Assembly: GCF_011400295.1 (NCBI RefSeq)
Contig: NZ_CP049859.1
Coordinates: forward strand, 1,612,001-1,676,000
Reading direction: 5' to 3'
Length of the DNA: 64,000 nucleotides
From: Erysipelothrix sp. HDW6A
GTDB lineage: Bacteria; Bacillota_I; Bacilli_A; Erysipelotrichales; Erysipelotrichaceae
The position numbers and the translations under genes are program-made. This document shows, in pieces, positions 30,023 through 49,885 of the stretch. The notes beneath the pieces were generated by a model that searched no databases, was not told the DNA's origin, and worked only from the letters and a program-made list of their open reading frames with translations. The stretch's first letter is position 1. Each line of letters begins with the position of its first letter.

Positions 30023-30045
30023 GTCACCCTTTGGTGACTTATTTT
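30019..30045 (+). terminator. Terminator of the lysine operon
   Basis: ATAAGTCACC pairs with GGTGACTTAT, followed by a short T run. The stop codon lies in the left arm. Confidence 0.85.
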
Positions 30046-30106
30046 CATATTTCATGTCTTGCTTGTGATAATGTGGTAGAATGTTAATAATGTTTAAGGA
30101 GGACTC

Positions 30107-31855: not shown

Positions 31856-31862
31856 TAAAAGA

Positions 31863-31886
31863 AAACCACAGCTTATGCTGTGGTTT
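31863..31886. terminator. Bidirectional terminator between convergent genes
   Basis: AAACCACAGC pairs perfectly with GCTGTGGTTT around TTAT. It lies between the ABC exporter and the F420-ligase-like gene. Confidence 0.85.
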
Positions 31887-33078
31887 ATTCGTTTGCAAAG
31901 TTATCGAAGTATCCAGAGACTAAAACAATAGGAGTCCCCTTATCACCTGATCCACTTGTTAAGTCACAAAGTGAACCGATTAAGTCAACTAAGCGACGTG
32001 GTGTTGTTCCTTGAGCTGCCATGTTACCAACAAGATCATCTTCTTTATTCTTAATCTCATTAGCAACTGCTTCTTGAAGTTCTTTACCACTTAAATCTTT
32101 AAAATCATTATCTGCTAAGTATTTCAATTTCAACTCGTTTGGAGTTCCATCAAGTCCTGGAGTAAATGCTGGAGATACTGTTGGATCAGCAAGTTCCCAG
32201 ATTTTTCCCATTGGATCTTTGAAGGCACCATCACCGTATACCATGACTTCGAAATGCTTACCAGTACGATCAAGCAATTGGTTTTGAATACTTAATACAA
32301 GATCTGTACATTCACGTGGGAAGAGTTTTACAGAATCTTCAGTAGATTTATTTGAACCAAGGAGTCCATAACGTTCGTTATAACCACTTCCATCAACTGA
32401 TTCCGTTAAAATATCATCAAGTCCTAATACTTCTGTAGCACCATTTTCTTTTAAGATACGTTTGGAACGATATGCTGTATGGATATCACATGTTAGCACG
32501 GAGCTTGTATAATTTAAAATTGTCTTAGCGTGGTTAGCGAAGATTATTTCTACTTCACAACCTTCTTCTTCAATAATTGATTGATAGTAAGATACATAAT
32601 CTACTCCAGTAAAAGGATGGACTGTATCTCCAAAATGTTTGCGATAGTCTTCTAAGCTTAAAACATCTACATAAGGGTTCACACCTGATTCATCAAGTTG
32701 TTCCCATGTAATGAGTTCATTACCTACTTCATCCGAAGGATAGCTAAGCATTAAGTAAATTTTCTTAACACCTCGTGCAATACCTTTTAAGTTCATTGAA
32801 AAGCGATTTCTCGATGTAATTGGAAATATAACACCAATTGTATCTGATTTGAATTTGTTCTTGATATCTTTCGCAATTGCATCTACCGATGCATAGTTTC
32901 CTTGTGCTCGCGCAACAATTGACTCAGTTAATGCAACAATATCGCGATCATGAAGATCAAATCCCTCAACTGTACTTGCATCAATAACACTGTCCACAAC
33001 GATTTTTGCTAAATCGTCTCCCTCACGAATAATCGGACTTCTAAGTCCTCTTGAAACAGTACCAACTTTTCTTCCCAT
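31885..33078 (-). CDS. F420-0:gamma-glutamyl ligase-like protein (orphan CofE family)
   Basis: The 397-residue protein begins with GLRSPIIREGDDLAKIVVDSV and contains LHDRDIVALTESIVARAQG, TSRNRFSMNLKGIARG and LDRTGKHFEVMVYGDGAFKDP, which are hallmarks of the CofE-type ligase family. True CofE adds glutamates to coenzyme F420. No F420 synthesis or F420-using gene is visible here, and this longer form is widespread in Firmicutes with unknown role. It may ligate an amino acid to another acceptor. A short dyad (GATGATA/TATCATC, 33103-33118) precedes it. Confidence 0.8.
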   Translation of the reverse strand: MGRKVGTVSRGLRSPIIREGDDLAKIVVDSVIDASTVEGFDLHDRDIVALTESIVARAQGNYASVDAIAKDIKNKFKSDTIGVIFPITSRNRFSMNLKGIARGVKKIYLMLSYPSDEVGNELITWEQLDESGVNPYVDVLSLEDYRKHFGDTVHPFTGVDYVSYYQSIIEEEGCEVEIIFANHAKTILNYTSSVLTCDIHTAYRSKRILKENGATEVLGLDDILTESVDGSGYNERYGLLGSNKSTEDSVKLFPRECTDLVLSIQNQLLDRTGKHFEVMVYGDGAFKDPMGKIWELADPTVSPAFTPGLDGTPNELKLKYLADNDFKDLSGKELQEAVANEIKNKEDDLVGNMAAQGTTPRRLVDLIGSLCDLTSGSGDKGTPIVLVSGYFDNFANE

Positions 33079-33202
33079 TATTGGACCTCTTTTCTACTTA
33101 AGGATGATAACTATCATCACCAGGAATATTCTATCATAATTAGCCTAGCAATTGGAAATATTCAGTTCATTTTTCCACATTCACTTCGTGAAAATAATAA
33201 AA

Positions 33203-33226
33203 GAAATCTTCACAATGAAAGATTTC
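33203..33226 (-). terminator. Terminator of the second RpiR gene
   Basis: GAAATCTT pairs with AAGATTTC (8 bp plus a bulged extension); a T-rich run follows on the minus strand. Confidence 0.7.
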
Positions 33227-34077
33227 TATTCTCTGTATCGTTTTGCAATGTCTTTTGTTTCATGCAAAATCTTTTGGTAACTGCTTAAATGTGGCTGAAC
33301 TACTCCTAAATAGATTAAATCTGCTACAATCATCGAATTAATCTTGGATGTAATTTCACCTACTCGAATGAGCGGTTCATTCTCTGGTATTCCTATGGAT
33401 ACATCCGCTAGTTTCGCGAGTCTCGACTCTCTATCTCCCGTAATTGCGATAACAGGTACACCTTTTGACTGCGCAATCTCTGTAGCGTAAATAGGCTCCC
33501 TTGAGCGCCCTGTATAAGAGAACACAATCAAGACATCTGTCTTCCGCGCATTGTTCAAGAGAACGCTTGTAAGATGGGTATCAAAGTTAAAATGAGTGGT
33601 CTTATTGATACGATTGAACTTCTGCGCTAAATCATACGCTGGTAAGGATGATGACCCTATCCCAAAAGCGTAGATTGTAGTTGCATGCTTTACAAAATTA
33701 ATTGCTTCTGATAATTTTTCCATATCAAGTTGATAGAATAAGTCTTTCGTTGAATTTTCCATAATGACTTGGATCTTCTGACTCATAACATCAAAGCTAT
33801 CGCCTTCATTCACAATCGGATCAAAAACGATTGGATTTTCTTCAACTTCTTCCTCTTCTGTTAACATAGAATCTTTGAGATCCTCAAGTCCTGCAAATCC
33901 CATTTTCTTTGCAAAACGTATTACAGAAGCTGGTGAAGTGTTACTTTTTTTGGCAATTTCCTGTGCCGTTTCTTGAGCTACATCGTCCAAGTTATGAATA
34001 AAATAGTCAGCAATATTACGATTAACTTTACTTAAGCTCCCATAAACACTACGAATTCTTAATACTATACTATTCAT
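33226..34077 (-). CDS. RpiR-family regulator (HTH plus SIS domain)
   Basis: The start is set at 34077, where GAGGGAG precedes the ATG; a TTG five codons upstream lies inside the overlapping gene. The 283-residue protein has an N-terminal helix-turn-helix (SNTSPASVIRFAKKMGFAGLEDLK) and a C-terminal SIS domain (YAFGIGSSSLPAYDLAQKF, VFSYTGRSREPIYATEIAQS). It follows a Cof phosphatase gene in the same unit and may respond to a sugar phosphate. Its targets are unknown. Confidence 0.9.
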   Translation of the reverse strand: MNSIVLRIRSVYGSLSKVNRNIADYFIHNLDDVAQETAQEIAKKSNTSPASVIRFAKKMGFAGLEDLKDSMLTEEEEVEENPIVFDPIVNEGDSFDVMSQKIQVIMENSTKDLFYQLDMEKLSEAINFVKHATTIYAFGIGSSSLPAYDLAQKFNRINKTTHFNFDTHLTSVLLNNARKTDVLIVFSYTGRSREPIYATEIAQSKGVPVIAITGDRESRLAKLADVSIGIPENEPLIRVGEITSKINSMIVADLIYLGVVQPHLSSYQKILHETKDIAKRYRE

Positions 34078-34092
34078 ATGCTTCTCCCTCAA

Positions 34093-34890
34093 TTATTCGA
34101 TGATATCTAGTGCTCTCATCGCTTTAATAATACCACTATTTAATACAGTATCTGTAATAAAATCTGCATATTCTTTAACATTATCTGTAGCATTCCCCAT
34201 TACAACAGCTACTTTTGCTTTCTCAAGCATTTCGATATCATTATCACCATCACCAAATGCCATAACGTTCTCCCAGCTTAAGCCATTCATATTAAGGACA
34301 TCTTCAATTGCCTTTGTCTTATCAACACCTTGCTTTGTAACTTCAAAAGCTATGTCTGATGCTCTTGTGAAGTATAGCTCTGGCATCTTTTCTTGGAATA
34401 CTGAAATCATATCGTTTGGACCAAAGCAAAATGCACCTACAGGATTATTATCGCTTAAGTATTTACGTTCATTATCCGGTAAGAGAAACTTAACTCCAGG
34501 GTGTTCAAAACCTACATAACGTGTTACATAATCTTGATAGTCACCATGAATACCAATAAAGTCATGATATTTGATTCCTATTGGGAACTCATGTTCTTCT
34601 GCAAAGTTGATAAGATTATTTAAGGATTCATGGGAATATCCGTAACTCTTGATTACTTCACCTTTTCCATCATTTAAGAGTGCACCATTCACAGTCACAT
34701 AATAGTCACTAGGCACCCTTTCTCTTACATCATCATGGATAAAGAAAAATGAACGCCCAGTTGCTATGAGTATCTGGTATCCCTTGTCCTTAGCCTGTTT
34801 CATTGCTTGTATCGCATCATCCTCAACCGTTTGCTTGCTTCGATCTACAAGTGTTCCGTCGATATCGAAGACTAATATCTTAATGTCCAT
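34093..34890 (-). CDS. Cof-type HAD phosphatase
   Basis: A 265-residue HAD protein with a C2 cap. Motif I is FDIDGTLVD, motif II lies in IATGRSFFF, and motif IV is GDGDNDIEMLEKAKVAVVMG. Family members dephosphorylate sugar phosphates and related metabolites. It precedes the RpiR gene by about 16 bases and is divergent from the GntR gene. Confidence 0.92.
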   Translation of the reverse strand: MDIKILVFDIDGTLVDRSKQTVEDDAIQAMKQAKDKGYQILIATGRSFFFIHDDVRERVPSDYYVTVNGALLNDGKGEVIKSYGYSHESLNNLINFAEEHEFPIGIKYHDFIGIHGDYQDYVTRYVGFEHPGVKFLLPDNERKYLSDNNPVGAFCFGPNDMISVFQEKMPELYFTRASDIAFEVTKQGVDKTKAIEDVLNMNGLSWENVMAFGDGDNDIEMLEKAKVAVVMGNATDNVKEYADFITDTVLNSGIIKAMRALDIIE

Positions 34891-34943
34891 AGGTTCTCCT
34901 TATTCATATCTTTAAATTATTCTCTAAATTTGATACACTATTA

Positions 34944-34955
34944 ATATATATACAA
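34944..34955. promoter_or_regulatory. GntR operator copy A (imperfect), in front of gntR
   Basis: ATATATATACAA matches the deduced operator TTGTATATACAA at 10 of 12 positions. It overlaps the -10 region downstream of TTGATA (34930-34935), as expected for autoregulation. Confidence 0.5.
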
Positions 34956-34978
34956 TATTGAATTTGCACGGAGGCATC

Positions 34979-35692
34979 ATGAAGAAATATACCGCCAAAG
35001 AAATCGAAACTATCATAGAAAGTGATATTCAAAATAATATTTATAAACCCCACGAGAAACTCCCAACAGAACGAGAGTTAATGGAAACCTACAACGTCAG
35101 TAGGACTACAATTCGTACAATTATTGACCAACTCATTATTAAGCGTCTCGCTTATCGTGTACCTGACAAAGGTGTCTTTGTCGAGAAAGAAATTATCCGT
35201 AAAGCGAATCGCATAACTGGATTTACCGACATGATTAAAGATACCGGTAGTGTTCCCACTACAGAAGTACCAAGTGTTAAACATATTATTCCTAATGAAA
35301 CGATTCGTGAAGCTATGAAGCTTAATGAAGACGAAACGGTATTAGAAGTTGTACGAAAACGATCGGTTGATGGTGACCCATTCTTATATGAGGTTGTATT
35401 TATTAATACTGCTTTATTCCCAGATATTGAGATGTATGATTTTTCCAAGGAATCGCTTTACGATATTATTGTGAATAAGTATCATAAGAAGATTTACTAC
35501 TTACAAGAAGTTGTAACCGCAACTCCGGTTGATGGAGAAATCAGTAACTTCCTGTATCAGAAAAACTCAGGATTCTCGTTAAAGGTAGAAGGTGTTTCTT
35601 ATACCTATAAGAATGAAGTTATTGAATATGGTATTAGTTATTACCACACTGAACGCTTTAGTTTCGAAAGTATTTTATTAAATCAAGAATAA
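34979..35692 (+). CDS. GntR/HutC-family regulator with UTRA domain
   Basis: The start is set at 34979, with GGAGG 6 bases upstream. The 237-residue protein has a winged helix-turn-helix (LPTERELMETYNVSRTTIRTII) and a UTRA ligand domain (EVVRKRSVDGDPFLYEVVFIN), the architecture of NagR/YvoA, TreR and related sugar-phosphate regulators. The neighbouring genes carry five copies of a TTGTATATACAA-like dyad, a pattern typical of this family, so it very probably controls the SIS, PTS and nagA genes here. The effector is likely an amino-sugar phosphate. Confidence 0.92.
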   Translation: MKKYTAKEIETIIESDIQNNIYKPHEKLPTERELMETYNVSRTTIRTIIDQLIIKRLAYRVPDKGVFVEKEIIRKANRITGFTDMIKDTGSVPTTEVPSVKHIIPNETIREAMKLNEDETVLEVVRKRSVDGDPFLYEVVFINTALFPDIEMYDFSKESLYDIIVNKYHKKIYYLQEVVTATPVDGEISNFLYQKNSGFSLKVEGVSYTYKNEVIEYGISYYHTERFSFESILLNQE

Positions 35693-35698
35693 GAATAA

Positions 35699-35729
35699 GG
35701 GCTAAAATATTTCTATTTTAGCTCTTTTC
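35699..35729. terminator. Bidirectional terminator after gntR
   Basis: GCTAAAATA pairs with TATTTTAGC around a 4-base loop, with T on the right. It separates gntR from the convergent SIS operon. Confidence 0.85.
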
Positions 35730-35744
35730 TTTATCCATTCAATT

Positions 35745-36470
35745 TTAGAAGTGTTTTACACGATCCTCGTATTTATCATACAATGCATCATTATCAAATC
35801 CATCAACGTTTTGTGATTGGAAGACTGGAATGTCGACACCTTCTTCACCAAGAATCTTTATTGCTTCACTAACGATGGTATTTAAAATGAAAATACTTGC
35901 CATTGTTGACCCAGGACCTGTACCAACAGACCCTACTTGCATCATTGCATCCCCTGAAGGAACACAGTTATCAAGTACGAAATCTACAACTTCATATAAT
36001 TTCTTACCACTTTCATGACGACTCGTAGTTGCTTGTGATTGTGCTAAGTTTGTAAGAGCGATGGTATAGATACCTTCTTTTTTAGCACGCATTGCCATTT
36101 CAATTGGCATTGCATTTCTACCTGAGTTTGAAGTAATAATCATAATATCACCTTTTTGAATATTATAACTATCGTAAACAACATCCGATACTCCGGATAG
36201 TTTCTCCATTGCTCCGGAACGACGTGCTCCGTTTGATGTTAAGACATCAGGATCAAGCATCGCATTAACGTTCGCAAGACCACCAGCACGAGCAAACAAT
36301 TCGATACCAATCATGTGTGAGTGACCTGTACCAAAGGTATGGATTACATGATTTGTCTTAATGTTCTCTGCAAACTTAACTGCTAATTCCTTAATATTTT
36401 CTTTTTGGCTTTCATACACCTTTTGGAATAATTCATCCAATTTATTCATATATTCAAATTCGTATTTCAT
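35745..36470 (-). CDS. SIS-domain protein, UPF0309 type (third of tandem set)
   Basis: A 241-residue single SIS domain. The sugar-phosphate binding loop HTFGTGHSHMIGIELFARAGGL and the second loop ITSNSGRNAMPIEMAM are intact, and the C-terminus ends DALYDKYEDRV. UPF0309 members are assumed to be phosphosugar isomerases or aldolases without a proven reaction. Its ATG shares a base with the stop codon of the preceding SIS gene. It is the best-preserved member of the three tandem copies and probably the active enzyme. Confidence 0.88.
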   Translation of the reverse strand: MKYEFEYMNKLDELFQKVYESQKENIKELAVKFAENIKTNHVIHTFGTGHSHMIGIELFARAGGLANVNAMLDPDVLTSNGARRSGAMEKLSGVSDVVYDSYNIQKGDIMIITSNSGRNAMPIEMAMRAKKEGIYTIALTNLAQSQATTSRHESGKKLYEVVDFVLDNCVPSGDAMMQVGSVGTGPGSTMASIFILNTIVSEAIKILGEEGVDIPVFQSQNVDGFDNDALYDKYEDRVKHF

Positions 36471-37219
36471 TATATTCTCCCTTCATACTTCGCTCTTAGA
36501 GCTTGGTTATGTTCTTTTGCTTCAGCACTATCTTCGAAGAGTAGTACTGGTACTTCATAATTATTATCTTTCAAGATTGATGTAACTTCTGCTGTAAATC
36601 CCTGAGCAATTAAGATACCAATAATTGATGATATCGAACCAATCTTACCACCATCTTCAAGAGGTATCATAGCATCACCACGAGGTCCACAGTTGTCAAT
36701 CACGATATCTCCAAAGTCCATAAGTTTTTGTCCACTTGGGTGACGTGATGGTTCAGCTGTAGTATGTTCTAAACTTGTGATTACAATTACTGGATGGTTC
36801 TCTTGTTTCGCTTTTATAGCTAAATCAATAACAACTCCATTAATTCCTGAGTTCGAAATAATTACAAACGCATCTTGTGGTTTAATGTTGTACATATCGA
36901 AGAGCTTATCTGCAACACCTGGTCTTCTCTCAAATTTATTGACTGGGTCTCTAAAGTCTTCCAATGTTGTGATTCCTTTGGTAACGAAATCACTGGTTAC
37001 TATTTGATGGATTGGAACCAAGTTACCTGGACGTCCAATCATCTCCATACCAACTCCTACTGAGTGACCTGATCCAAAGAAGTGAACAACTCCATCACTC
37101 ATAATTGATTCTGCAAGAATCTCACTTGCTTTACGCATATTTTCCATTTGCGTTTCTTGGTATTTATTGACTACTTTATGTGTTTCTTCTAAGAAACGTT
37201 GTGTGTTCATTGTTGTCAT
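36470..37219 (-). CDS. SIS-domain protein, UPF0309-like (second of tandem set)
   Basis: A 249-residue paralogue of its neighbours. The first loop FFGSGHSVGVGMEMIGRPGNL and the second loop IISNSGINGVVIDLAIKAK keep the Ser residues of phosphosugar binding. It starts 10 bases after the frameshifted first copy and overlaps the third by one base. The three may form a hetero-oligomer or act on different isomers; the sequence does not tell. Confidence 0.86.
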   Translation of the reverse strand: MTTMNTQRFLEETHKVVNKYQETQMENMRKASEILAESIMSDGVVHFFGSGHSVGVGMEMIGRPGNLVPIHQIVTSDFVTKGITTLEDFRDPVNKFERRPGVADKLFDMYNIKPQDAFVIISNSGINGVVIDLAIKAKQENHPVIVITSLEHTTAEPSRHPSGQKLMDFGDIVIDNCGPRGDAMIPLEDGGKIGSISSIIGILIAQGFTAEVTSILKDNNYEVPVLLFEDSAEAKEHNQALRAKYEGRI

Positions 37220-37228
37220 ATGCCCTCC

Positions 37229-37962
37229 CTATGAATTATAACGTCCGTCAAATTTCGAACAGATAGAATCATTGTGCTCATCAGCACCTACAATGTTAGC
37301 ACTCCATAATACTCCAGCTTCATGGCCACATTCGATTAATGCAGTATAGATTTCCATTGTTAATGATTGTGCAAACATGTTACCAATTAAGTTTGCGATT
37401 TGGCATACTTGTGTACCTTTAACATCCATTACTAAGTCAGGATATGGAATCTTCAAATCTAATCTCTTATCAGCTAATGCTAGAAGCTCTTTAGCATTCT
37501 TAGCATATTCTGTTTGGACAATTGTAGCTTCTGAACTTACTACAATCACTTTATGATTCTTTTCTTTCGCAAGTTTTGCGAGAGCTAGTGTTACGTTATA
37601 TACATTCTCGACAGCATAAATTACAAGTGCGTCTCTTGGATCTGTTTCATACATATCCCAAAGTTTTTGAGCTAAATCTTCACGATCATAGAAATTTGGA
37701 TCTAGTGCTTCCTCTGCAGGAATATGCCCTCTAAACGCTAAATCTTTAATTGACATTTGGTGATACTGAACCAATCCCCCGCACGGAATCCTAGTTCCAT
37801 ACCAAATTCTAAGTCATGTTCGATACCAAATAATTGAATAATTCCCTCATCAACCATGATATCTTTAATGAAGTGAGCAACATCTCGGATGTCACTTTCA
37901 GCTCCATTAACAGCAGTATTAATTGAATTCATCGCTACTTCAACATACTTCTTAGCTTGCAT
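37229..37962 (-). pseudogene. SIS-domain protein (first of tandem set), frameshifted and motif-degenerate
   Basis: The start at 37962 (MQAKKYVEVAMNSIN) has AAGGAGG upstream. The frame breaks at about 37778-37782 in a run of five G; adding one G rejoins it to the frame starting GLVQYHQMSIKDLAFRG, giving about 244 residues. The total length is 2 modulo 3. Beyond the frameshift, the phosphosugar loops are lost: GTGHS became GIEHD and SNSG became AVENV. Even if the frameshift were a sequence error, the protein would be non-catalytic, perhaps a regulatory subunit. Confidence 0.8.
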
Positions 37963-37975
37963 ACTTTCCTCCTTA

Positions 37976-37987
37976 TTGTATATACAA
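37976..37987. promoter_or_regulatory. GntR operator copy B, in front of the tandem SIS operon
   Basis: TTGTATATACAA is a perfect 12-bp palindrome, directly upstream of the ribosome-binding site of the first SIS gene. A -35 box TTGACA lies about 40 bp upstream, so the operator covers the start region. Confidence 0.85.
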
Positions 37988-38061
37988 TCTATATTAAAAC
38001 TACCAAATGTAAGCGGTTTTGTCAATGTATTCGTGGTAATTCCATCCATCTTTCACGAATA

Positions 38062-39303
38062 CTAACGATTAGACTCTATTTCTTTCACAAGGCGCTCTCC
38101 CTCACCCCGTTCGTAAATACTCGATAAAGCTTCATAAGTCCCAATATCAAAGGCTCTCTTATTTGGTAAATATGATTGATATTGATTACCTAAAGAAATG
38201 AGCCATGTATTCCCTTTTTCTTTTAAAGGTTTAACGAGTTCTGAGAACACTTCACTACTTAGAGTTATTACATCATAATCATTAATTTTTATTATTGAGT
38301 AATCAAAACCCTTCACCGTTTTACCAACAAACCCCTTACTTAAATGCTCATTGAAAAGAGCGCCTTCTAAGCGTGATTTTATGATTCGTAATTCAGTACC
38401 ATCAATGTTGTGAGCAAGTGCTTCATTGTATTCGTCTTGGGCATATTTTACTTTTCGTTTTGCTTCGTCGATTGTATCAAACTTCTTCAATTGAATATCA
38501 AAATTATAATTATGTACTTCGTACTTACTAATTTCAATTTCATCTCCCATTTCTTGTACAGCTCTTTTTACACAATTTACGGCAATGGTACCCAAACGTC
38601 TGCACTCAGCAGGACTTGATTCTTTACGATAAAAACGAGTACTCATATCACCACAGGGTGCATTGAAGAACATTGTAAAGGGATAAGTTTCTTGAAGTAC
38701 ACGATCAACTTCACCAACGTAATCTGATGAATACAGTGTACTGTTTCTATCCAGTATGGTAGGATGTCCACCAAATGAGTAGAGTAATATTGTTTCATGA
38801 GGCAAGATTACTTCCACTACCAATACTTCTTTATCATCTTCATATTTTTGATTGATTCTATTTGACTGGAATCCTTCCATCATAGAACGAGCTATGCGAA
38901 CTTTAAAGGGCTCAAGGGACGCATTACTCTCAATAAAGGCATCAACACATAGAGAAACCAAACGATCAAAATACTGACGTTCTGGACCGTTTTCATCTTG
39001 TTCATAATACTGACTTTCATTAAGAACTCTTGGCCCAGAATGAGTATGGGTCGAAAACATTTGGAAGTCATCATAGTGATATCCTTTAGCCTCTAATTGT
39101 GAAAGTATCTGTTCTTTGAGATAAAGATCATTACCCAGTAAATCTGTAACCATCCAAGCATAACGCTTATCACCATCAGTAAGTGTTAATACTTTGACAT
39201 GTAGTTTTGAATGAATACCAGTACTCATTCTACTTGGTATAAAACCAACAAGTTCCATATTATATTCAGGAGTAATATCCCGCAAACTATATCCTATTCT
39301 CAT
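38062..39303 (-). CDS. Neutral-ceramidase-like hydrolase without signal peptide
   Basis: The start is set at 39303 (MRIGYSLRDITPEYN), where AGAGAGG precedes the ATG; the longer frame from 39369 would run through a large inverted repeat. The 413-residue protein matches the N-terminal catalytic domain of neutral/alkaline ceramidases: zinc-site motifs STHTHSGP and SFGGHPTIL, and NAPCGDMS. True ceramidases are larger and secreted; this one is cytosolic and lacks the C-terminal domain. Set between a PTS operon and SIS genes, it may be an amidase acting on an N-acylated amino-sugar phosphate. That role is inference. Confidence 0.78.
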   Translation of the reverse strand: MRIGYSLRDITPEYNMELVGFIPSRMSTGIHSKLHVKVLTLTDGDKRYAWMVTDLLGNDLYLKEQILSQLEAKGYHYDDFQMFSTHTHSGPRVLNESQYYEQDENGPERQYFDRLVSLCVDAFIESNASLEPFKVRIARSMMEGFQSNRINQKYEDDKEVLVVEVILPHETILLYSFGGHPTILDRNSTLYSSDYVGEVDRVLQETYPFTMFFNAPCGDMSTRFYRKESSPAECRRLGTIAVNCVKRAVQEMGDEIEISKYEVHNYNFDIQLKKFDTIDEAKRKVKYAQDEYNEALAHNIDGTELRIIKSRLEGALFNEHLSKGFVGKTVKGFDYSIIKINDYDVITLSSEVFSELVKPLKEKGNTWLISLGNQYQSYLPNKRAFDIGTYEALSSIYERGEGERLVKEIESNR

Positions 39304-39325
39304 CTTAATCCTCTCTTTATTAAAA

Positions 39326-39371
39326 ATGTGGTTAAAACGATAGTTGTTAGTAACGATCATTTTAACCACAT
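39326..39371. repeat. Large inverted repeat upstream of the ceramidase-like gene
   Basis: ATGTGGTTAAAA (39326-39337) is repeated inverted as TTTTAACCACAT (39360-39371) with 22 bp between. ACGAT also occurs twice inside in the same orientation. No T run follows on the minus strand. It may be an operator for an unidentified regulator or an mRNA hairpin. Confidence 0.65.
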
Positions 39372-39448
39372 AATTATTTATTTAAATATTTTATGCATGA
39401 AAGATAATGTCGCTCATTAAAAGTCAATAAACAAAGTATGTCTGTTTA

Positions 39449-39853
39449 TTACTCATCTTCTTCCATATCATCATCAAGCATACTTCTTAAATCAACAATT
39501 CCTTCGTTACCGGCATTGATCACTTCTTCAACTGTAATACCATCTGTAAGTATTGTTGTGAGAAGCATTGGGAAGTTAACCCCAGAAACAATGTGGAAAC
39601 GTGGATCGACTGCTAATTTCATGAATGAAGTATTTCCTGGTGATCCACCAAGTAAGTCCGTGAATACAAAGATTTCATCATAGTCTGTTAATTGTGAAAT
39701 CAAGTTTTCTAATTTTTCTTCAAATTGGTCTGGTCCTTCTGTTGGATATAAACCTAAAGAAAATACATCATCTCTTTCGCCAGCAATCATTTCTACTGAC
39801 ATCTTTAAACCTTTGGAGAAATCTCCGTGTGATACTATTAACACTGCCTTCAT
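39449..39853 (-). CDS. PTS mannose-family EIIA
   Basis: A 134-residue IIA of the mannose superfamily with the phosphorylated His9 in VLIVSHGDFSKG and the conserved FVFTDLLGGSPGNTS. It ends in an acidic tail. It is the last PTS gene of the operon, separated from EIID by a terminator-like hairpin. It passes phosphate from HPr to the EIIB of the same cluster. Confidence 0.93.
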   Translation of the reverse strand: MKAVLIVSHGDFSKGLKMSVEMIAGERDDVFSLGLYPTEGPDQFEEKLENLISQLTDYDEIFVFTDLLGGSPGNTSFMKLAVDPRFHIVSGVNFPMLLTTILTDGITVEEVINAGNEGIVDLRSMLDDDMEEDE

Positions 39854-39872
39854 AGTGTGTCTCCTTTTAAGA

Positions 39873-39905
39873 AAGAAAAAGGAAGAAGTATGATACTTCC
39901 TCCTT
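39873..39905 (-). terminator. Terminator-like hairpin between EIID and EIIA genes
   Basis: AAGGAGGAAGTA pairs with TACTTCTTCCTT (12 bp, one G-T pair) around TGA or TCA, and a T run follows on the minus strand. Within an operon it would lower expression of the downstream genes. Confidence 0.65.
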
Positions 39906-39919
39906 TAATGAATTATGTA

Positions 39920-40804
39920 TTAAACAAGAAGTTCAACAACTGTGTAGTTTCCTAATGCTGCTGCTAAAAGACAGAATAGAATAACTCCAAAGATAAGTTT
40001 ATTAGAGTTCATATTCTTTCTACCGAGTAACCAGTAACAAAGAGCAACCATCATAACTCCACCAGCTTTTGGCATTAACTTGTCAAATAAATCTGTTTGA
40101 AGGTTTAGGAAGTAGTCAGGAACCATTTTCTTAGCTCCGTTAACTTCAACTTCTTTCATCAGTTTGACTCCATTACGAATACCACCAAAGTTAACGTTAA
40201 CCATGGAAGCAATCATCGCACCAATAACTGTAACCCCCAATACTGAAGCAGCATCGGTAAATGCGTTTAATTGATGACTTAATGTTGTAACTAAAGCAGT
40301 ACCTTGTTTGTATCCTAAATCAAAGAAGATTGGACGGATTACAAATAGGTTTAAGAGTGACCATGCAACTAATAGTGCAAGACCAAAGTAGTTTCCATCT
40401 AAAGAGAATGTAACAGCGATTGATCCTAAGATTGTACCAGCGATCATACCGAATACGGTATCACCAATACCAGCAAATGGACCCATCAATGATGTTTTAA
40501 TAGCTGCTGCTGTATCGATAACGTCTTCGCCATCGAACTCTTCTTCAAGAGCAATGTTCATACCAACAATGATATCACCCATTGAAGGTTGTGTATTAAA
40601 GAATTGTGAGTGAACACGAAGTGCTTTATCCATTAATTCAGGATTATCACCATAAGAATCTTTAAGAACAGGAAGCATGGTTGTTAAATAACCAAGACCT
40701 TGCATTCTTTCGTAGTTCCATCCAATTTGTGAATGCCAAATCCAACGATAGTGTAATTTTTTCAGTTGTTTTTTATCATAACGTCCGTGTGCTTTACTCG
40801 TCAT
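39920..40804 (-). CDS. PTS mannose-family EIID
   Basis: The start is uncertain: ATG codons at 40813 and 40804 both follow a GGAGGGG run, and 40804 has the more usual spacing. About 294 residues. The IID pattern is present: YERMQGLGYLTTMLPVLK, MGDIIVGMNIALEEEFDGEDV, KTSLMGPFAGIGDTVFGMI and a cluster of C-terminal membrane helices. It overlaps the end of the EIIC gene. With EIIC it forms the membrane channel. Confidence 0.93.
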   Translation of the reverse strand: MTSKAHGRYDKKQLKKLHYRWIWHSQIGWNYERMQGLGYLTTMLPVLKDSYGDNPELMDKALRVHSQFFNTQPSMGDIIVGMNIALEEEFDGEDVIDTAAAIKTSLMGPFAGIGDTVFGMIAGTILGSIAVTFSLDGNYFGLALLVAWSLLNLFVIRPIFFDLGYKQGTALVTTLSHQLNAFTDAASVLGVTVIGAMIASMVNVNFGGIRNGVKLMKEVEVNGAKKMVPDYFLNLQTDLFDKLMPKAGGVMMVALCYWLLGRKNMNSNKLIFGVILFCLLAAALGNYTVVELLV

Positions 40805-41594
40805 ATTCGTCATCCCCTCCCATATCTGATGGACCTGCTGCGACTCCACCAACTCCTTCAACGTTTGTACGGTATACTAGTAATGCTGCTGCAAGACCGA
40901 TTAACGCTACACCTAAAGTATCCATCTTCAAGTATGCTGATAATACGAAACCGACAATTAACCATGTGAAGTGGCGTTGAACAGGTAAATATTTAAGTAA
41001 GATTGTGAAACCTACACCAGGTAAAATCTTACCAGCGATTTGGAAACCTTGTGTTAACCAAGGAATATTGTTGTTAATAAATGCAGTGAAGTTTGTAACA
41101 GCTTCCCCACCGAAATAAAGAGCAACAAACATAGGAATTGTACGTGATAATGCCCATGGGATTGTACCCATTAAGTTCATACGCTCAATACCTTTTAAAT
41201 CCCCAACTTCAACAAACTTGTCAGCACGACGTTGGAAGAATGTATTTGACATACGTCCTAAGATATCGAACTGAACACCAAGTGCTGCTAGCGGAACCCC
41301 AACCATCGTAATTAATGTTTGAGCTTGATCAACGCTTGTACCTAAAGCTGTAACCAACATTGCTGCTGATGTCCAGTTAGGAATAGAAGCACCACCATAA
41401 GTACCAATACCCAATGCATATGATTGAAGTGTACCACCAACGATAAGACCCAATTCTGGACGTCCTACGAAGATTCCGGTAACTACACCAGTTTGGATAA
41501 TACCATTTAGACCGATTCCAAATGATAATCCATCAACCATTGCAATACCTGCATAGAGTGACAGGAATAATACTTGCAATATATTTAATTCCAT
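40794..41594 (-). CDS. PTS mannose-family EIIC
   Basis: A 266-residue channel subunit with about seven helices. Characteristic segments are GLNGIIQTGVVTGIFVGRPELGL and GTYGGASIPNW. The acidic C-terminus GGDDEYDE overlaps the start of EIID. Mannose-family systems carry mannose, N-acetylgalactosamine, sorbose and similar hexoses; the SIS and deacetylase genes around favour an amino sugar. Confidence 0.93.
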   Translation of the reverse strand: MELNILQVLFLSLYAGIAMVDGLSFGIGLNGIIQTGVVTGIFVGRPELGLIVGGTLQSYALGIGTYGGASIPNWTSAAMLVTALGTSVDQAQTLITMVGVPLAALGVQFDILGRMSNTFFQRRADKFVEVGDLKGIERMNLMGTIPWALSRTIPMFVALYFGGEAVTNFTAFINNNIPWLTQGFQIAGKILPGVGFTILLKYLPVQRHFTWLIVGFVLSAYLKMDTLGVALIGLAAALLVYRTNVEGVGGVAAGPSDMGGDDEYDE

Positions 41595-41653
41595 AAAGCT
41601 CCTCCTTTTTTTCTCTATTTCTTTAAATTTTACTGCCTAGATTTAGTGGATGA

Positions 41654-42148
41654 TTAATCAAAGATTGAGTCACTTGCAATAAGTGGAGCAAAATCTACGA
41701 TATCATCAGTAGGGATCATTTGTGCTGTTAATTTAACACCATGATCAACTAACTTACGGAAACTCTCAACATCTTCTTTGGTTACACCAACTGTACGACG
41801 AACCTGAACACTTCCGAATTTTTCTGACATATTCCCAACGTTCACTGTTTTAAAGTGGAATCCTTCATCCCAAGCTCTAACGAGTGTTTTAGGATTACGT
41901 GCGATTACAAAGACGCGCTCGCCTTCGTATTTACCTTCCTGTAAATTCTTTGATGCAGTAGGTACCGTTAATATTGATAATTTAACACCTTTTGGCGTAG
42001 CCATCTTAAGTGCCATTTTTTGGATTTGGTCCTTTGCTGCAAAATCGTCAATAACAACAATACGTGTTGCTTTTAACATTGCTGTCCAGTACGCGGCAAC
42101 CTGTCCGTGTATGAGACGCTCATCAATTCTAATATTCACAATTTCCAT
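41654..42148 (-). CDS. PTS mannose-family EIIB
   Basis: A 164-residue IIB with the phosphorylated His14 in IDERLIHGQVAAYW and the typical VFVIARNPK and VNVGNMSE segments, closest in pattern to the N-acetylgalactosamine branch (AgaV). It is the first gene of the B-C-D-A operon, behind a strong promoter with an overlapping cre site. AGGA precedes the ATG. Confidence 0.93.
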   Translation of the reverse strand: MEIVNIRIDERLIHGQVAAYWTAMLKATRIVVIDDFAAKDQIQKMALKMATPKGVKLSILTVPTASKNLQEGKYEGERVFVIARNPKTLVRAWDEGFHFKTVNVGNMSEKFGSVQVRRTVGVTKEDVESFRKLVDHGVKLTAQMIPTDDIVDFAPLIASDSIFD

Positions 42149-42183
42149 AAGAATCCTCCAATCATCTGCGCCATTATTTCAAG

Positions 42184-42197
42184 ACTAAGCGCTTACA
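42184..42197 (-). promoter_or_regulatory. cre site at the start point of the mannose-family PTS operon
   Basis: TGTAAGCGCTTAGT matches the consensus at 13 of 14 positions. It coincides with the expected transcription start of the adjacent promoter, a position that gives strong CcpA repression. Confidence 0.8.
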
Positions 42198-42202
42198 TCT
42201 CG

Positions 42203-42231
42203 ATTATAGCAACCACTTTCTTTGATGTCAA
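42203..42231 (-). promoter_or_regulatory. Consensus promoter of the mannose-family PTS operon
   Basis: On the minus strand a perfect TTGACA, a 17-bp spacer and a perfect TATAAT. Confidence 0.9.
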
Positions 42232-42314
42232 AGACTAATTATGGGATTGAGTCACATTTTTCGAATTTCTCACACATTTTACGTCTTGAAAGTTTTAGTA
42301 TTTCATTTCACGAA

Positions 42315-42529
42315 GTTTCGTATGTATGAAACGCTGTTTCTTATGTAAATTTTCAGTTTTGTATAGACAACTACTTATATAAGGGTATTTGCCCATTTCA
42401 CTTGTGTGAAAACCTTAAAAACAGAGCATATTCTTGATATCAAATTGAATGAAATGGAATCATTCTTCTCAAATGTTACTGAAATTTTAGTAAAAATATG
42501 AAATTTGCGTGAAATCTGTATTTCATATT
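42315..42529. repeat. Cluster of TTTCA/TGAAA dyads upstream of the PTS promoter
   Basis: Three inverted repeats share the same half-sequence: GTTTC/GAAAC at 42315-42332, TTTCAC/GTGAAA at 42396-42411 and AATATGAAAT/ATTTCATATT at 42495-42529. Further single copies of TTTCA lie between them. No gene is seen in this 480-bp gap. They may bind an activator or help bend the DNA upstream of the promoter. Confidence 0.45.
42359..42370. promoter_or_regulatory. GntR operator copy C, upstream of the PTS operon
   Basis: TTGTATAGACAA matches the deduced operator at 11 of 12 positions. It lies about 130 bp upstream of the main promoter; a weaker promoter (TTGTCT, 17 bp, TACATA on the minus strand) overlaps it. 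Confidence 0.6.
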
Positions 42530-42587
42530 TTATTTGTCATTTCTAGACTTTGAAATATTATTTTAATGCGATTATGTGATGAATATA

Positions 42588-42616
42588 GAAAAGATGGCAG
42601 TATAAACCACCATCTT
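42588..42616 (-). terminator. Terminator of the SIS/M28-like operon
   Basis: AGATGG pairs with CCATCT around about 12 bases; TTTTCT follows on the minus strand. Confidence 0.65.
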
Positions 42617-42629
42617 CTAATAATTATTC

Positions 42630-43559
42630 TTACTTTAAGTAGTCAAGACACATATTTACAACCTGTGTAAACATTGCCTCATTAATTTCTAAATCTTTGT
42701 TGTTAAAAACATCTTTTATTTCCCAAAAACCATCTTCATTAGATGCTGCTGAGATAGATACTGCACGATCATAATATGAAAGTGAATGTCGTTTCAAATC
42801 AGTATCTGTTAATTCATACAATGATACATTTTTCTGACCCTTGGATATCTCTTCTGCAAAGTCTCTATTACTTACAGTGTGTCCAACAACAATACTTTTC
42901 ACATCACTACCGATACCTCGCAGATGAATAACGTTCTTAGTATGAATTGATTTTGGTAAAGATTCCTGTAACATCACATCACCAAGGTTATCGATACACT
43001 CCCTATCAGTTAAGACATAGGCTGTATCTTTAGGATGTTTCTCAGCAATCGCTAGAACCCCTAGAACACCAGACGTGTTCAAGTTTGAGTTAATTGGATT
43101 ACCAATACCTCGTAATATATAAAACCCTACAGCACTAAGCAAACAGGTAATAATGATCGCGAGTATGTTTAAGGTCATCTGTTCTAAACCTGAAAACTTA
43201 AAGATTAGAAACATTAATACAAACGCTGCTAAAGCAATGTATAAAACAACACGTTTGGATACTTCTTGTTGATTACGCTCCGTCCCCTCAATGTTAAAGG
43301 GATAGAAAACCATATTCTTATCAAATGAATTAATAGGAGTATCATAATGTGCAACGACAATGTTCTTCGCATTGACTAGGTCACCAACATAAAGATTCAA
43401 GCCCTTAAAACGTTTTAACTTAGTATAACGTGCTTGTACATCATAGCCCAACTTTTGAAACTCACTACCAATCTCGTTGATAAAGAGTTCTTTTTCATTG
43501 TCTTTGTAGCGTCTTCCTAAATAGATACCATATTTAAGTGCTTTCTCCTGTAAATCCAT
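42630..43559 (-). CDS. M28-like peptidase fold with two inserted membrane helices, probably inactive
   Basis: The 309-residue protein starts like an M28 aminopeptidase (VVAHYDTP provides the first zinc histidine and aspartate). Two hydrophobic helices, near residues 105-122 and 130-150, then interrupt the fold. The usual DNASG motif reads LNTSG, and the EE catalytic pair is replaced by DRECIDNLG. The metal site therefore looks incomplete. It shares one base with the stop of the upstream gene (TGATG), so it belongs to the SIS operon. Its function is unknown. Confidence 0.7.
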   Translation of the reverse strand: MDLQEKALKYGIYLGRRYKDNEKELFINEIGSEFQKLGYDVQARYTKLKRFKGLNLYVGDLVNAKNIVVAHYDTPINSFDKNMVFYPFNIEGTERNQQEVSKRVVLYIALAAFVLMFLIFKFSGLEQMTLNILAIIITCLLSAVGFYILRGIGNPINSNLNTSGVLGVLAIAEKHPKDTAYVLTDRECIDNLGDVMLQESLPKSIHTKNVIHLRGIGSDVKSIVVGHTVSNRDFAEEISKGQKNVSLYELTDTDLKRHSLSYYDRAVSISAASNEDGFWEIKDVFNNKDLEINEAMFTQVVNMCLDYLK

Positions 43560-44086
43560 CAGCGATTTCTCCTCTTCCCAAAATAATTTATTACTTCTTT
43601 GAGGCTATTGCCTTCCCCACGTTTATTCTGTTCATCTTTAAGACGGTATTGCTTACTTGTTTTTGGAGCATATTCTTCAATATATTTTGTAATCCTATAC
43701 GGACTAAACAAATAGACATACATTATCTTATTGTCATGATCTTCAATAAGAATACAATCTTCTCCACCAGAATTACTTTGTAAATCCCAAGTGAATATAT
43801 CTTCCCAAGCAATTACTTGGCAAAGTTCTGGATTTTTTATATCATAGACAATTAATTGTGTTTCTGTGATTGTTGCTACTTTTCGTTCTTTAAATCGAAT
43901 AAAAACAGCTAAGGTAAAGATTACGAAAATGAGTCCAAAAACCTTCGCTAAATTTGGTCCGAATAGAATCATCAAGACGCCAATCAAAGATGGCACAATA
44001 AAGGTAATAATCTGACGATTGCTTACATCTTTTACAATTTTATGCGATGGTAGATCTTGAACTGAAATACGTTCAATCTCTATCAT
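43559..44086 (-). CDS. Membrane protein with PH-like C-terminal part, unknown function
   Basis: A 175-residue protein with two adjacent hydrophobic helices (near residues 27-45 and 48-65) followed by a beta-rich soluble part (ATITETQLIVYDIKNPELC) and a basic end. It resembles proteins with a bacterial PH-like domain, but no family is certain. It overlaps the SIS gene by ATGA and the M28-like gene by TGATG, so the three are translated together. A membrane-linked complex with the M28-like protein is possible. Confidence 0.65.
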   Translation of the reverse strand: MIEIERISVQDLPSHKIVKDVSNRQIITFIVPSLIGVLMILFGPNLAKVFGLIFVIFTLAVFIRFKERKVATITETQLIVYDIKNPELCQVIAWEDIFTWDLQSNSGGEDCILIEDHDNKIMYVYLFSPYRITKYIEEYAPKTSKQYRLKDEQNKRGEGNSLKEVINYFGKRRNR

Positions 44087-44817
44087 AGGCCTTTTTCCTT
44101 GTAGAGTGTTTCAAGATCAATATTATATTGAACGTTTTCTGGATAGTTCACACTACCTAGAATTCCAGGTTTTAACCCTTTTTCTAATAAGAGATCAAGA
44201 AGTTCAGCCATTACAGTCCACATAATATAAGCTGCTGATAGACCAGATGCTGGAATAAATGCACGGTCTACACCTTCTACATCTAACATAGCATCACCAA
44301 ATGGTGCACAGTTATCAATTAATACATCATTAATTTCGTAAAGTTTCTTACCGGATGAGTGGAGTGCATTAAGTTGTTTTGTATAGGTTACTGATGTAAG
44401 AGCTACAATCTTAACACCTAGCTTTTGTGCTGCAAGTGCTAGATCAACAACACTAATTGAGTTTCCTGATACAGAACCAATAAACATTACATCTCCTGGG
44501 TAAACATTGGATGCACGTAAAGCAAATTCTGCGAGTCCTTCCATGGAGCGATTTTTATCACCCTCAAGATCGTCTTGGATACGAGCAATTGAATCTACAT
44601 TTAAACCATATTTAAAACTACGGATAAAGTTAAAGCCACCTGCACGATTCTTAATTTCTGAATCAATAATATGACCGGTGTCAAACAAGTGAATAGAATG
44701 TCCTGCTGCAACTGCTTCAGCACACATTGCTGCTGCTTCACTCATTGCTTCTGACTGTGTATTTCGTATTGTTTCTTGTAATTCATCGACTGCTTTAAAA
44801 TAACGATTCTTAATCAT
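44083..44817 (-). CDS. SIS-domain protein, fourth paralogue
   Basis: A 244-residue SIS protein related to the tandem set 7 kb away. The first loop is HLFDTGHIIDSEIKNRAGGF (Asp in place of Gly), and the second, IGSVSGNSISVVDLALAAQ, keeps its serines. It also keeps IDNCAPFGDAM seen in the other copies. It heads an operon with a membrane protein and an M28-like protein. A GntR operator 66 bp upstream should control it. The altered first loop suggests a different ligand from the UPF0309 copy. Confidence 0.85.
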   Translation of the reverse strand: MIKNRYFKAVDELQETIRNTQSEAMSEAAAMCAEAVAAGHSIHLFDTGHIIDSEIKNRAGGFNFIRSFKYGLNVDSIARIQDDLEGDKNRSMEGLAEFALRASNVYPGDVMFIGSVSGNSISVVDLALAAQKLGVKIVALTSVTYTKQLNALHSSGKKLYEINDVLIDNCAPFGDAMLDVEGVDRAFIPASGLSAAYIMWTVMAELLDLLLEKGLKPGILGSVNYPENVQYNIDLETLYKEKGL

Positions 44818-44882
44818 ATACTTGCCTCCTGTATATTAAGTATATATTATCACATTCAAGTTCCATGTAAAGAAAACCATTA

Positions 44883-44894
44883 TTGTATGTACAA
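44883..44894. promoter_or_regulatory. GntR operator copy D, between divergent SIS and membrane-protein genes
   Basis: TTGTATGTACAA is an 11-of-12 match and a near-perfect palindrome. Its first six bases are also the -35 box (TTGTAT, 17 bp, TATAAT at 44906-44911) of the rightward gene, so binding blocks that promoter and probably the leftward one. Confidence 0.85.
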
Positions 44895-44933
44895 CATTGT
44901 CATGTTATAATTCAACTAAATGGAGATGATACT

Positions 44934-45428
44934 ATGGATTTAAATTCGATTACCTATTTATTAATAGCTGCATTAATGGTTTATATTGTGTATTCACGAG
45001 TAAAGCTCTATTACGATCATACCGTGAGCCTACAAAATATTTCAAAAAAACAGAAATTTAAGATTTATCGATCTTTTTCTTGGTTCTACGTTGTTTATGG
45101 TCTTGTGATTGTCGCTTCAATTGGAGCTGCTATCTTTACCTATATTGGTACAGCAGATGATAAGACGATGTGGTACTTAGTCTATGCTGTACTCGCAATT
45201 ACAAGTGCAACAGATCTTCTTCGTACTTATATGATTAACACTACCTACTACAATGAGGATGGTTTCTTCAATACCGCAAACTATGTTCGCTATAAAAGTG
45301 TCCGTTCCTTTAAGCCAGGTAAGTTTAATCTTTCAACAGAAGTCCTCTTGTTCTCTGGTGAGACAATCATCATGCCTACAAACGCACTTCAATTCCTTGA
45401 AGATCGAATGATTAAAGCTAGAAAGTAA
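44934..45428 (+). CDS. Three-helix membrane protein, unknown function
   Basis: The start is placed at 44934, with GGAG 9 bases upstream; a longer frame from 44883 would begin inside the promoter. The 164-residue protein has three hydrophobic segments (near residues 5-25, 45-65 and 75-97) and a soluble end with RYKSVRSFKPGKFNLSTEV. No family is recognised. Its -35 box lies in a GntR operator, tying it to the amino-sugar regulon. It is monocistronic. Confidence 0.7.
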   Translation: MDLNSITYLLIAALMVYIVYSRVKLYYDHTVSLQNISKKQKFKIYRSFSWFYVVYGLVIVASIGAAIFTYIGTADDKTMWYLVYAVLAITSATDLLRTYMINTTYYNEDGFFNTANYVRYKSVRSFKPGKFNLSTEVLLFSGETIIMPTNALQFLEDRMIKARK

Positions 45429-45452
45429 ACTCTAAATGAGTTTACTTTTTTT
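45423..45452. terminator. Bidirectional terminator
   Basis: AAGTAAACTC pairs perfectly with GAGTTTACTT around TAAAT, followed by T. It ends the membrane-protein gene and the convergent patB-like gene. Confidence 0.9.
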
Positions 45453-46580
45453 CATGAAATCTAAGAGTCTTTCTAAAAACTCCTGAATAATTTCAGGTGG
45501 TGACACAAGAACTAATCGCTGATAGTTTTCAAAGTTTTGACCGAAATCTATTCCATCCGAAAATGCAATGCGAGCTTTATCACGCATTGTTTTATTTAGT
45601 CCTGGTTCATTTACTTTTGAGAAATCTATCCACATAAAATAGGTACCATCTTCAATTGATGTACTGAGTGGTAAATTATGCTCTTGGATGAAACTCACTA
45701 CTCGATTTCTATTCTCAATAATAAGATTCTTAACACTCTCCAACCATGCATCTGATTCGTACAGTGCAGGTTTTAGTACAGCTAAGCCGAAGAGATTAAT
45801 ACTATGAATCCCTACTGTTGCTGCATAATGTCGAAAGCGTTCCATCAACTCTTTGTTTTTAATGATGCATGCCGATACTTTTAAACCTGCTACATTGAAC
45901 GTCTTACTTACTGATACACACGCTATTGTATGGTTCAACATATACTCACTAGCATTCATTAAAGGTAGATGTGGTTTATCGAATACAAAGTCTGCATGAA
46001 TCTCATCGACTACCACATACAGATTATGCTTCTCTGCTATTCTTGCGATTTCTTTTACTTCCTCATCATTTAGGACTTTACCTGTCGGATTGTGAGGATT
46101 GCATAGTAAAAGAATCTTTGTATTCTCTTTAATTTTAGATTCTAAATCAAGGAAATCATAAGTCCATGAGTCCTTCAGTACTAAGTCACTTACCTGACAC
46201 TCACGGCCATTCTTTAGCACCATATCTCTAAAGGGTGGATAGGTAGGTTCAACATAGAGAACTCCATCTCCTGGTTCAGAAAGAAGCTGTATTGCTGCGC
46301 TAATTGAATACATTACTCCTGTTGATAGGGCTATATTATGTGTCTCGACCTGATACTTATGCTTTCGATTTAACCAATCAGCAAAAGCTTGTTGATACTC
46401 AATACCACGATCAGTGTAACCAAAGGTTGGATGTTCTGCTCGAGTTTGAATCGCTTCTAAGATTGCAGGAGATACCGGCAAATCCATATCAGCCTGAATC
46501 AGAGAAATGACATCCTCTTCAACAAGTGTCCACTTGGTTGCACCATAGAATCGTCGTTTACTTATTAAATCATTCTCCAT
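45432..46580 (-). CDS. PatB/MalY-type aminotransferase or cystathionine beta-lyase
   Basis: A 382-residue PLP enzyme of fold type I. The PLP lysine is in VSVSKTFNVAGLK, and NPHNPTGKVLNDEEV and the DEIHADF aspartate are present. PatB and MalY cleave C-S bonds of cystathionine and similar substrates. The gene overlaps the end of cutC by 11 bases and is the third gene of a nagA-led unit. Why a C-S lyase sits with amino-sugar genes is not clear; read-through control by the GntR operator is likely. Confidence 0.9.
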   Translation of the reverse strand: MENDLISKRRFYGATKWTLVEEDVISLIQADMDLPVSPAILEAIQTRAEHPTFGYTDRGIEYQQAFADWLNRKHKYQVETHNIALSTGVMYSISAAIQLLSEPGDGVLYVEPTYPPFRDMVLKNGRECQVSDLVLKDSWTYDFLDLESKIKENTKILLLCNPHNPTGKVLNDEEVKEIARIAEKHNLYVVVDEIHADFVFDKPHLPLMNASEYMLNHTIACVSVSKTFNVAGLKVSACIIKNKELMERFRHYAATVGIHSINLFGLAVLKPALYESDAWLESVKNLIIENRNRVVSFIQEHNLPLSTSIEDGTYFMWIDFSKVNEPGLNKTMRDKARIAFSDGIDFGQNFENYQRLVLVSPPEIIQEFLERLLDFMKKSKLI

Positions 46581-47306
46581 GTGCTCGTTGTACCGCTTTC
46601 TCTAATTCTTCCCTACTTACATCAAAGTAATCTGGCTCTCTCTTCTTACCAATATCACTATAACGTGATGAAGTTGGGTCGCTAATCCATTCCTTAAAGG
46701 AACCATGAATTTCTGGAATTCCAGTTTTATCAAGGATTTCTTTAATATTCGCTGCCACAACACCACCTCCAGGAAGCAGTGCTATTTTATCTCCATATTT
46801 TTCATGTAAGTCCTTAAGTAAAGGAACTCCATCAATCGCATTCGCTTGAAGTCCACTTGTAAGAATACGTTCTATTCCACATTCAATCAGAGCTTCAATT
46901 GCTTCATACGGATCCCGTACATTATCAAAAGCACGATGATATATAGCCTCTTTTCCATATTGATGTGCTAAGTCAGCAAAACGTTTCGTTCGTTCCACAT
47001 CAACATTGCGATCAATATCTAAGAATCCAAAGACTATCCCATCAGCTCCGTTCTCTAAAAGTTGAACGGCATCAAAATACATTTGCTCGACTTCATATTC
47101 ATCGTAGAGAAAACCACCAGTACGTGGACGAATCATGGTTACCATTGGTAAATCAACATGCTTCTTCGCTTCGATTAGTGTTCCTACTGTAGGTGTAAGC
47201 CCCCTAAAAGTGTTGCATTGTTCAATTCGATACGATCAGCACCACACTCTTTAGCGATAATACATCCTCTTACTGTTTCACAAAGTACTTCAATGACTGG
47301 TTTCAT
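46570..47306 (-). pseudogene. cutC: CutC family protein, frameshifted
   Basis: The N-terminal frame from 47306 reads MKPVIEVLCETVRGC through GGLHLQ and then stops; the rest, from MVTMIRPRTGGFLYDE to the end, is in another frame. Restoring one A in TTACACC (about 47194) gives GGLTPTVGTLIEAKK, the expected CutC sequence, and a 245-residue protein. Total length is 2 modulo 3. CutC is a TIM-barrel protein once linked to copper, of uncertain role. The start overlaps the nagA stop by ATGA. Either the gene has decayed or the base is missing from the assembly. Confidence 0.85.
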
Positions 47307-48460: not shown

Positions 48461-48496
48461 TATTATCCCTCCTTTACTTTTTTATTGTAGCATAGA

Positions 48497-48508: not shown

Positions 48509-48517
48509 AACACAAAT

Positions 48518-49868: not shown

Positions 49869-49885
49869 GAAAAAATCGGTTTTGA

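Follow-up and report, generated by a model that had tools for sequence, protein, structure and literature searches.

What does a protein with the fold of a ceramidase cut when its gene lies among genes for the import and breakdown of amino sugars? Firmicutes commonly encode short ceramidase-like proteins, which take their name from the lipid enzyme; the one studied here (CER) is encoded in Erysipelothrix sp. HDW6A, in the 64,000 nucleotides of contig NZ_CP049859.1 that we call the window. The best explanation, to which we give an even chance, is that CER is a cytosolic zinc amidohydrolase which cuts the N-acyl amide of an amino-sugar compound that the cell has imported and that is probably phosphorylated; we infer that CER hydrolyses an amide, that its substrate is an amino sugar and is phosphorylated, and in what order the SIS and CER steps run. 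A literature search that covered few subscription journals found no account of a ceramidase-like enzyme that is cytosolic or linked to a PTS.

The protein was characterized from its open reading frame, by Pfam and alignment and through an AlphaFold model.

38062-39303, minus strand: CER, ceramidase-fold protein, 413 residues

The reading frame starts with an ATG at 39303, with a Shine-Dalgarno-like AGAGAGG immediately 5', and stops at 38062; its longest form opens with a GTG at 39369, and the fold starts at residue 2 of the ATG form. The Pfam family PF04734 (Ceramidase_alk) matches the first 157 residues above its gathering cut-off (E 3.6e-17, 62.6 bits, cut-off 32.1). The model (pLDDT 94.2), aligned with VIA-align, superposes on the catalytic domains of the Pseudomonas ceramidase (2zws residues 5-483; Z 38.1, rmsd 3.2 Å over 372 residues) and of the human enzyme (4wgk; Z 35.2), and the best structural match after the ceramidases reaches a Z of only 8.9. 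NylC and others were considered as structural kin and rejected, their resemblance being weak (Z below 9), confined to residues 1-132 and limited to a single domain. A profile of 31 CER relatives matches both halves of the catalytic domain (E 1e-40 for Pseudomonas, 4e-37 for human). A profile scan with 33 relatives yielded no sufficiently conserved pattern, and a five-row alignment was taken in their place.

CER stops where residue 483 of 2zws aligns, and since the aligned range comprises the catalytic domain only, the C-terminal domain of neutral ceramidases is missing. By inspection we found no secretion or membrane signal, as no hydrophobic leader precedes the first β-strand, which begins at residue 2. 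A preliminary description made from the sequence had pointed to the motifs STHTHSGP and GGHPT (residues 84-91 and 178-182) and to the absence of both a signal peptide and the C-terminal domain, and all of this stands. The NCBIfam equivalog for neutral ceramidases, NF041649 (EC 3.5.1.23), is not reached, with 26 bits for CER against a cut-off of 1200. CER has its catalytic fold in common with the neutral ceramidases of Pseudomonas aeruginosa (2zws, 2zxc) and human (ASAH2, 4wgk), but with about 17-20% identity, an STRFxR motif absent from the aligned ceramidases, and a gene that belongs to an amino-sugar operon instead of lipid degradation.

The zinc ligands of 2zws, which we take to be H97, H204, E411 and Y448 (His, His, Glu, Tyr), align with H86, H180, E351 and Y378 of CER, and H99, R160 and Y460 of the Pseudomonas enzyme with H88, R149 and Y390. 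The preliminary description had considered that zinc ligands might be missing; all four are there and, together with H88, R149 and Y390, are invariant among the 31 relatives (alignment A3). All seven residues are kept in 89 of the 113 sequences of a wider set, where most departures are changes of Y390 to F or H within the clade free of SIS genes. CER is a short, non-secreted member of the neutral-ceramidase family PF04734 with a complete zinc site. Tandem CER genes were seen beside a glucose-type PTS at two loci of other genomes (L136 6516-9904, L067 8306-10829); the first copy of each pair has F at H88 and Q at H180, as if it were a non-catalytic partner.

The gene had been placed inside a PTS/SIS amino-sugar locus, and its surroundings bear this out: it is preceded by genes for the PTS components IIB, IIC, IID and IIA and followed by three UPF0309 SIS genes, in this order and all on one strand.

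41654-42148, minus strand: mannose-type PTS EIIB (Pfam PF03830)
40794-41594, minus strand: mannose-type PTS EIIC (Pfam PF03609)
39920-40861, minus strand: mannose-type PTS EIID (Pfam PF03613)
39449-39853, minus strand: mannose-type PTS EIIA (Pfam PF03610)
42203-42231, minus strand: promoter-like TTGACA-17-TATAAT with a TG ahead of the second hexamer, upstream of the PTS genes
42184-42197, minus strand: candidate cre site TGTAAGCGCTTAGT, one mismatch, just 3' of the promoter-like site
39326-39371, minus strand: hairpin followed by a U run, between EIIA and CER

The mannose-family PTS is complete in its four components, and none of the specificity equivalogs attains its cut-off against it. The promoter-like site agrees with sigma-70 at 12 of 12 consensus positions, which is a consensus match only; a further cre-like site lies ahead of nagA (48518-48531). 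Folding of 39300-39450 gave a z of -5.0 that no shuffle equals. There is a second strong hairpin with a U run at 39878-39906 (minus strand), between EIID and EIIA; both hairpins may be attenuators or mRNA processing sites, and Rfam gave no match over window positions 30000-50000. The E. coli aga operon combines a mannose-family PTS with a deacetylase (AgaA) and an SIS protein (AgaS) (PMC3668189). It resembles the CER locus in these three elements but is not known to include a ceramidase-fold enzyme or a UPF0309 protein.

The SIS genes can be compared with a characterized enzyme. NagS of Streptomyces (SCO4393), a UPF0309 protein, converts GlcNAc-6P by dehydration to 6P-chromogen I, which the Streptomyces NagA promiscuously deacetylates, and the UPF0309 SIS proteins are kin of both NagS and MurQ (PMC12680351). 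Four paralogues occur in the window.

37229-37962, minus strand: UPF0309 SIS paralogue 3, frameshifted, split into reading frames 37738-38049 and 37229-37774
36470-37219, minus strand: UPF0309 SIS paralogue 2, keeps NagS H53, R64, E94 and D179, not N228
35745-36470, minus strand: UPF0309 SIS paralogue 1, keeps NagS H53, S54, R64, E94, S119, S121, D179 and N228
44083-44817, minus strand: UPF0309 SIS paralogue 4, with a candidate operator 66 bases upstream

The SIS partners score 266, 245 and 187 bits with the NCBIfam model UPF0309 / PRK02947 (cut-off 135). Paralogue 3, the first SIS gene downstream of CER, is frameshifted after RAG and has lost its phosphate-binding serines (the SNSG phosphate loop is degenerate); an intact counterpart exists in the closest relative (L072 7072-7812). 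The catalytic residues of NagS (H53, R64, E94, D179) are found in paralogues 1 and 2 and in most SIS proteins adjacent to CER genes; in the latter, H53, S54, R64, S/T91, E94, S119, S121, D179 and N228 are nearly always kept, and so are the residues by which NagS contacts GlcNAc-6P (PMC12680351). In the Streptomyces toxicity pathway, NagS acts with a deacetylase on an N-acetylhexosamine phosphate; here, a nagA gene belongs to the candidate regulon of CER. The Streptomyces pathway, however, uses NagA, with no ceramidase-fold partner described and no PTS operon, and when distant UPF0309 proteins of Clostridium and Paenibacillus were assayed as GlcNAc-6P dehydratases, their activity was negligible or absent (PMC12680351).

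The preliminary description had named a lack of conserved linkage to PTS and SIS genes in related genomes as grounds for giving up its proposal; a survey of 98 of them with 54 CER genes speaks for a conserved linkage. A UPF0309 gene lies within 1 kb of 10 CER genes where 0.39 are expected, and the two genes adjoin or overlap in many genomes. Both occur in 23 genomes, CER only in 8, UPF0309 only in 16 and neither in 51 (Fisher p 4e-6, with the kinship of the genomes ignored); within the genus, UPF0309 is found in 5 of 5 genomes with CER and in 0 of 8 without it. The clade to which the window's CER belongs (30 rows, SH-aLRT 99) is SIS-linked in 22 of 30 cases against 7 of 83 outside, and sister clades have mannose- or glucose-type PTS neighbours and no SIS genes. 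The linkage to PTS and SIS genes spans Erysipelotrichaceae, Lachnospiraceae, Clostridium and Coprothermobacter, with carriers that include Clostridium paraputrificum, Lachnoclostridium, Coprothermobacter platensis and Erysipelotrichaceae MAGs.

The operons vary around this core, to which NanE or NagA is often added: divergent GntR, then NanE-IIB-IIC-IID-IIA-CER-SIS (L090, L092, L078), PTS-CER-SIS-NagA (L087), and PTS-NanE-SIS-NagA-CER-NagB-II-like (L094). Close to CER genes of the sister clades are NagB and NagA (L140) or ChbG/YdjC (L048, L142, L143). The cargo comprises NanE, NagA, NagB or NagB-II-like, ChbG/YdjC, a PepV-like dipeptidase and a GlmU-like protein, all of them amino-sugar catabolic enzymes except the last two. 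The two closest relatives of CER (42% and 39%) have an MFS transporter beside the gene in place of the PTS.

A candidate operator extends the connection beyond the operon. The palindrome TTGTATATACAA is the box of TreR, another HutC-type GntR regulator (PMC11356801), and the window contains both a regulator of this type and four matching sites.

34958-35692, plus strand: GntR/HutC-type regulator with GntR and UTRA domains, presumed operator binder
37976-37987, no strand: candidate GntR/HutC operator TTGTATATACAA, exact, 14 bases before the first downstream SIS ATG
42359-42370, no strand: candidate GntR/HutC operator TTGTATAGACAA, 211 bases upstream of EIIB
44883-44894, no strand: candidate operator TTGTATGTACAA, 66 bases upstream of SIS paralogue 4
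48497-48508, no strand: candidate operator TTGTACATACAA, 37 bases upstream of nagA
47303-48460, minus strand: NagA, N-acetylglucosamine-6-phosphate deacetylase family (TIGR00221, 243.7 bits, above cut-off)

If one mismatch at most is allowed, the four sites of the window compare with 0.54 expected; the genome has 16, and the reversed control gave 11. Of the genomic sites, six stand directly 5' of the PTS-CER operon (one), of UPF0309 loci (three) or of nagA genes (two); the binomial p is 4e-13, for target genes picked after the locus was seen. The operator core recurs in related genomes between gntR and CER or nanE (L078, L080, L081, L083, L084, L089, L092) and ahead of SIS genes in L072. The candidate shared operator joins the CER operon to nagA, and the site recurrence suggests that the GntR protein of the window binds it. 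At another locus of the window's own genome (L145 7384-9328), an exact TTGTATATACAA precedes a nagA paralogue, and the gene after it looks DeoC-like by eye; the product of that gene might perform a retro-aldol step on a deoxy-sugar phosphate.

Given the shared operator and the neighbouring NagA, NanE, NagB and ChbG genes, CER is best read as acting on an amino sugar. The preliminary description had proposed a cytosolic deacylase for an N-acylated sugar phosphate imported by the PTS, and the complete zinc site, the conserved linkage and this amino-sugar setting support the proposal in part; a PTS beside CER does not extend to the two closest relatives with their MFS transporter, and a simple N-acetylhexosamine-6P fits poorly, because the NagA paralogues of the candidate regulon already cover its deacetylation. 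The genome has about six NagA paralogues; at other loci it encodes MurQ and a canonical NagA, the latter next to a NagB-like gene. The CER step is accordingly not needed for plain GlcNAc or MurNAc, and plain GlcNAc-6P deacetylation is an unlikely role for CER, which more likely cuts an amide spared by NagA. CER as a replacement for NagA was dropped because operons with CER, and the candidate regulon, include NagA paralogues, and the CER step as a replacement for MurQ was dropped as the main reading given the canonical MurQ. NagA and ChbG/YdjC, which adjoin CER in several genomes, perform a metal-dependent N-deacetylation of PTS-imported sugars of the kind proposed for CER, but their folds are unrelated to that of CER, and the co-occurrence indicates that the CER substrate probably differs from theirs. 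A possible hint at phosphate is the motif GDMSTRFYR of CER with R223 and R226: PTS-linked proteins have GD[IMV][SG][TN]R..R at this place, whereas planctomycete, armatimonadete and ABC-linked kin have mostly GDVNH-like sequences. The motif is consistent with phosphate recognition but tracks ancestry, and a comparison of independent pairs gave no support for a link to the PTS beyond ancestry.

In the preferred reading, the PTS would take up an N-acylated amino sugar and deliver it as a sugar phosphate, on which the SIS enzymes would perform elimination chemistry. CER would cut the amide left by NagA, whether ahead of the SIS step, following it or replacing it, with a product that would enter GlcNAc/GlcN-6P metabolism. 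The chemistry would be familiar to the fold, as the 2-acylamino-1,3-diol that forms the reacting head of ceramide is also present in a ring-opened or reduced 2-acylamino sugar. Taken further, the locus could represent an undescribed amino-sugar route of gut- and animal-associated Firmicutes, distinct from NagA-NagB, in which a NagS/MurQ-like SIS enzyme and then a dedicated ceramidase-fold deacylase process a PTS-imported N-acylhexosamine phosphate under their own GntR operator; this we put forward tentatively, as an idea more apt to fail than to hold. It would be rather unlikely, in our judgement, that CER is specifically the deacylase of the SIS product, with an N-acylhexosamine-6P dehydrated by the SIS enzyme to an enamide of the 6P-chromogen I type, hydrolysis of that enamide by CER, and loss of ammonia to give a 3-deoxy-hexosulose phosphate. 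The adjacent or overlapping CER and SIS genes argue for such a sequence, as do the NagS and NagA reactions of Streptomyces (PMC12680351) and the operator-bearing nagA paralogue with its DeoC-like follower; the existence of SIS-free CER clades argues against it, and so does the lack of GlcNAc-6P dehydratase activity in the non-streptomycete UPF0309 proteins assayed to date (PMC12680351).

Other readings change the bond or the compound. The ceramidase fold is known for hydrolysing amides and CER has kept the active-site residues, which makes it quite unlikely that CER is a zinc esterase or other hydrolase using this site on a non-amide bond of a sugar derivative, even though the family has other carbohydrate settings: in Paenibacillus and Cohnella, its neighbours include ABC sugar transporters and a GH3 enzyme. 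An amidase for muramyl or other peptide-linked amino sugars would act on a phosphorylated conjugate after import, at the lactyl-alanine (or glycosyl-asparagine) amide, and the SIS protein would serve as a MurQ-like etherase. The relation of the SIS proteins to MurQ (PMC12680351) and PepV-like dipeptidase genes in the same operons (L079, L090, L092) are compatible with this, but a dipeptidase of this kind is missing from the operon in the window, NanE finds no obvious place in the route and the genome has its canonical MurQ, and we regard this amidase as decidedly unlikely. The frameshift just downstream could mean that the locus is decaying and CER out of use in this strain; with CER, the PTS genes and SIS paralogues 1 and 2 intact, and catalytic residues and operators kept, that is very improbable. 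For a true ceramidase acting on intracellular ceramide, to which fold and zinc site are alike, the probability is close to negligible given the missing secretion signal and C-terminal domain, the equivalog score and the amino-sugar operon and candidate regulon; an intact zinc site within a gene set for amino-sugar import and breakdown implies that CER probably deacylates an imported sugar, not a lipid.

If the short proteins are sugar deacylases, the ceramidase annotation of the family is misleading, and the substrate of UPF0309 SIS proteins outside Streptomyces becomes testable. The ceramidase fold would also acquire a branch in the cytosol, and added domains may be the main feature that sets the secreted lipid enzymes apart from it.

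Three minor observations concern neighbouring genes. In the closest relative, a gene for 132 residues, glyoxalase/VOC-like by eye, lies between the MFS transporter and CER (L072 9310-9708). DUF34/NIF3 genes were seen near CER genes of the SIS-free clade, mostly PTS-linked ones (L046, L052, L053, L058, L143, L144). Finally, the window has a second sugar locus with NagA-family genes at 17338-18528 and 19768-20981, one intact and one split into two reading frames.
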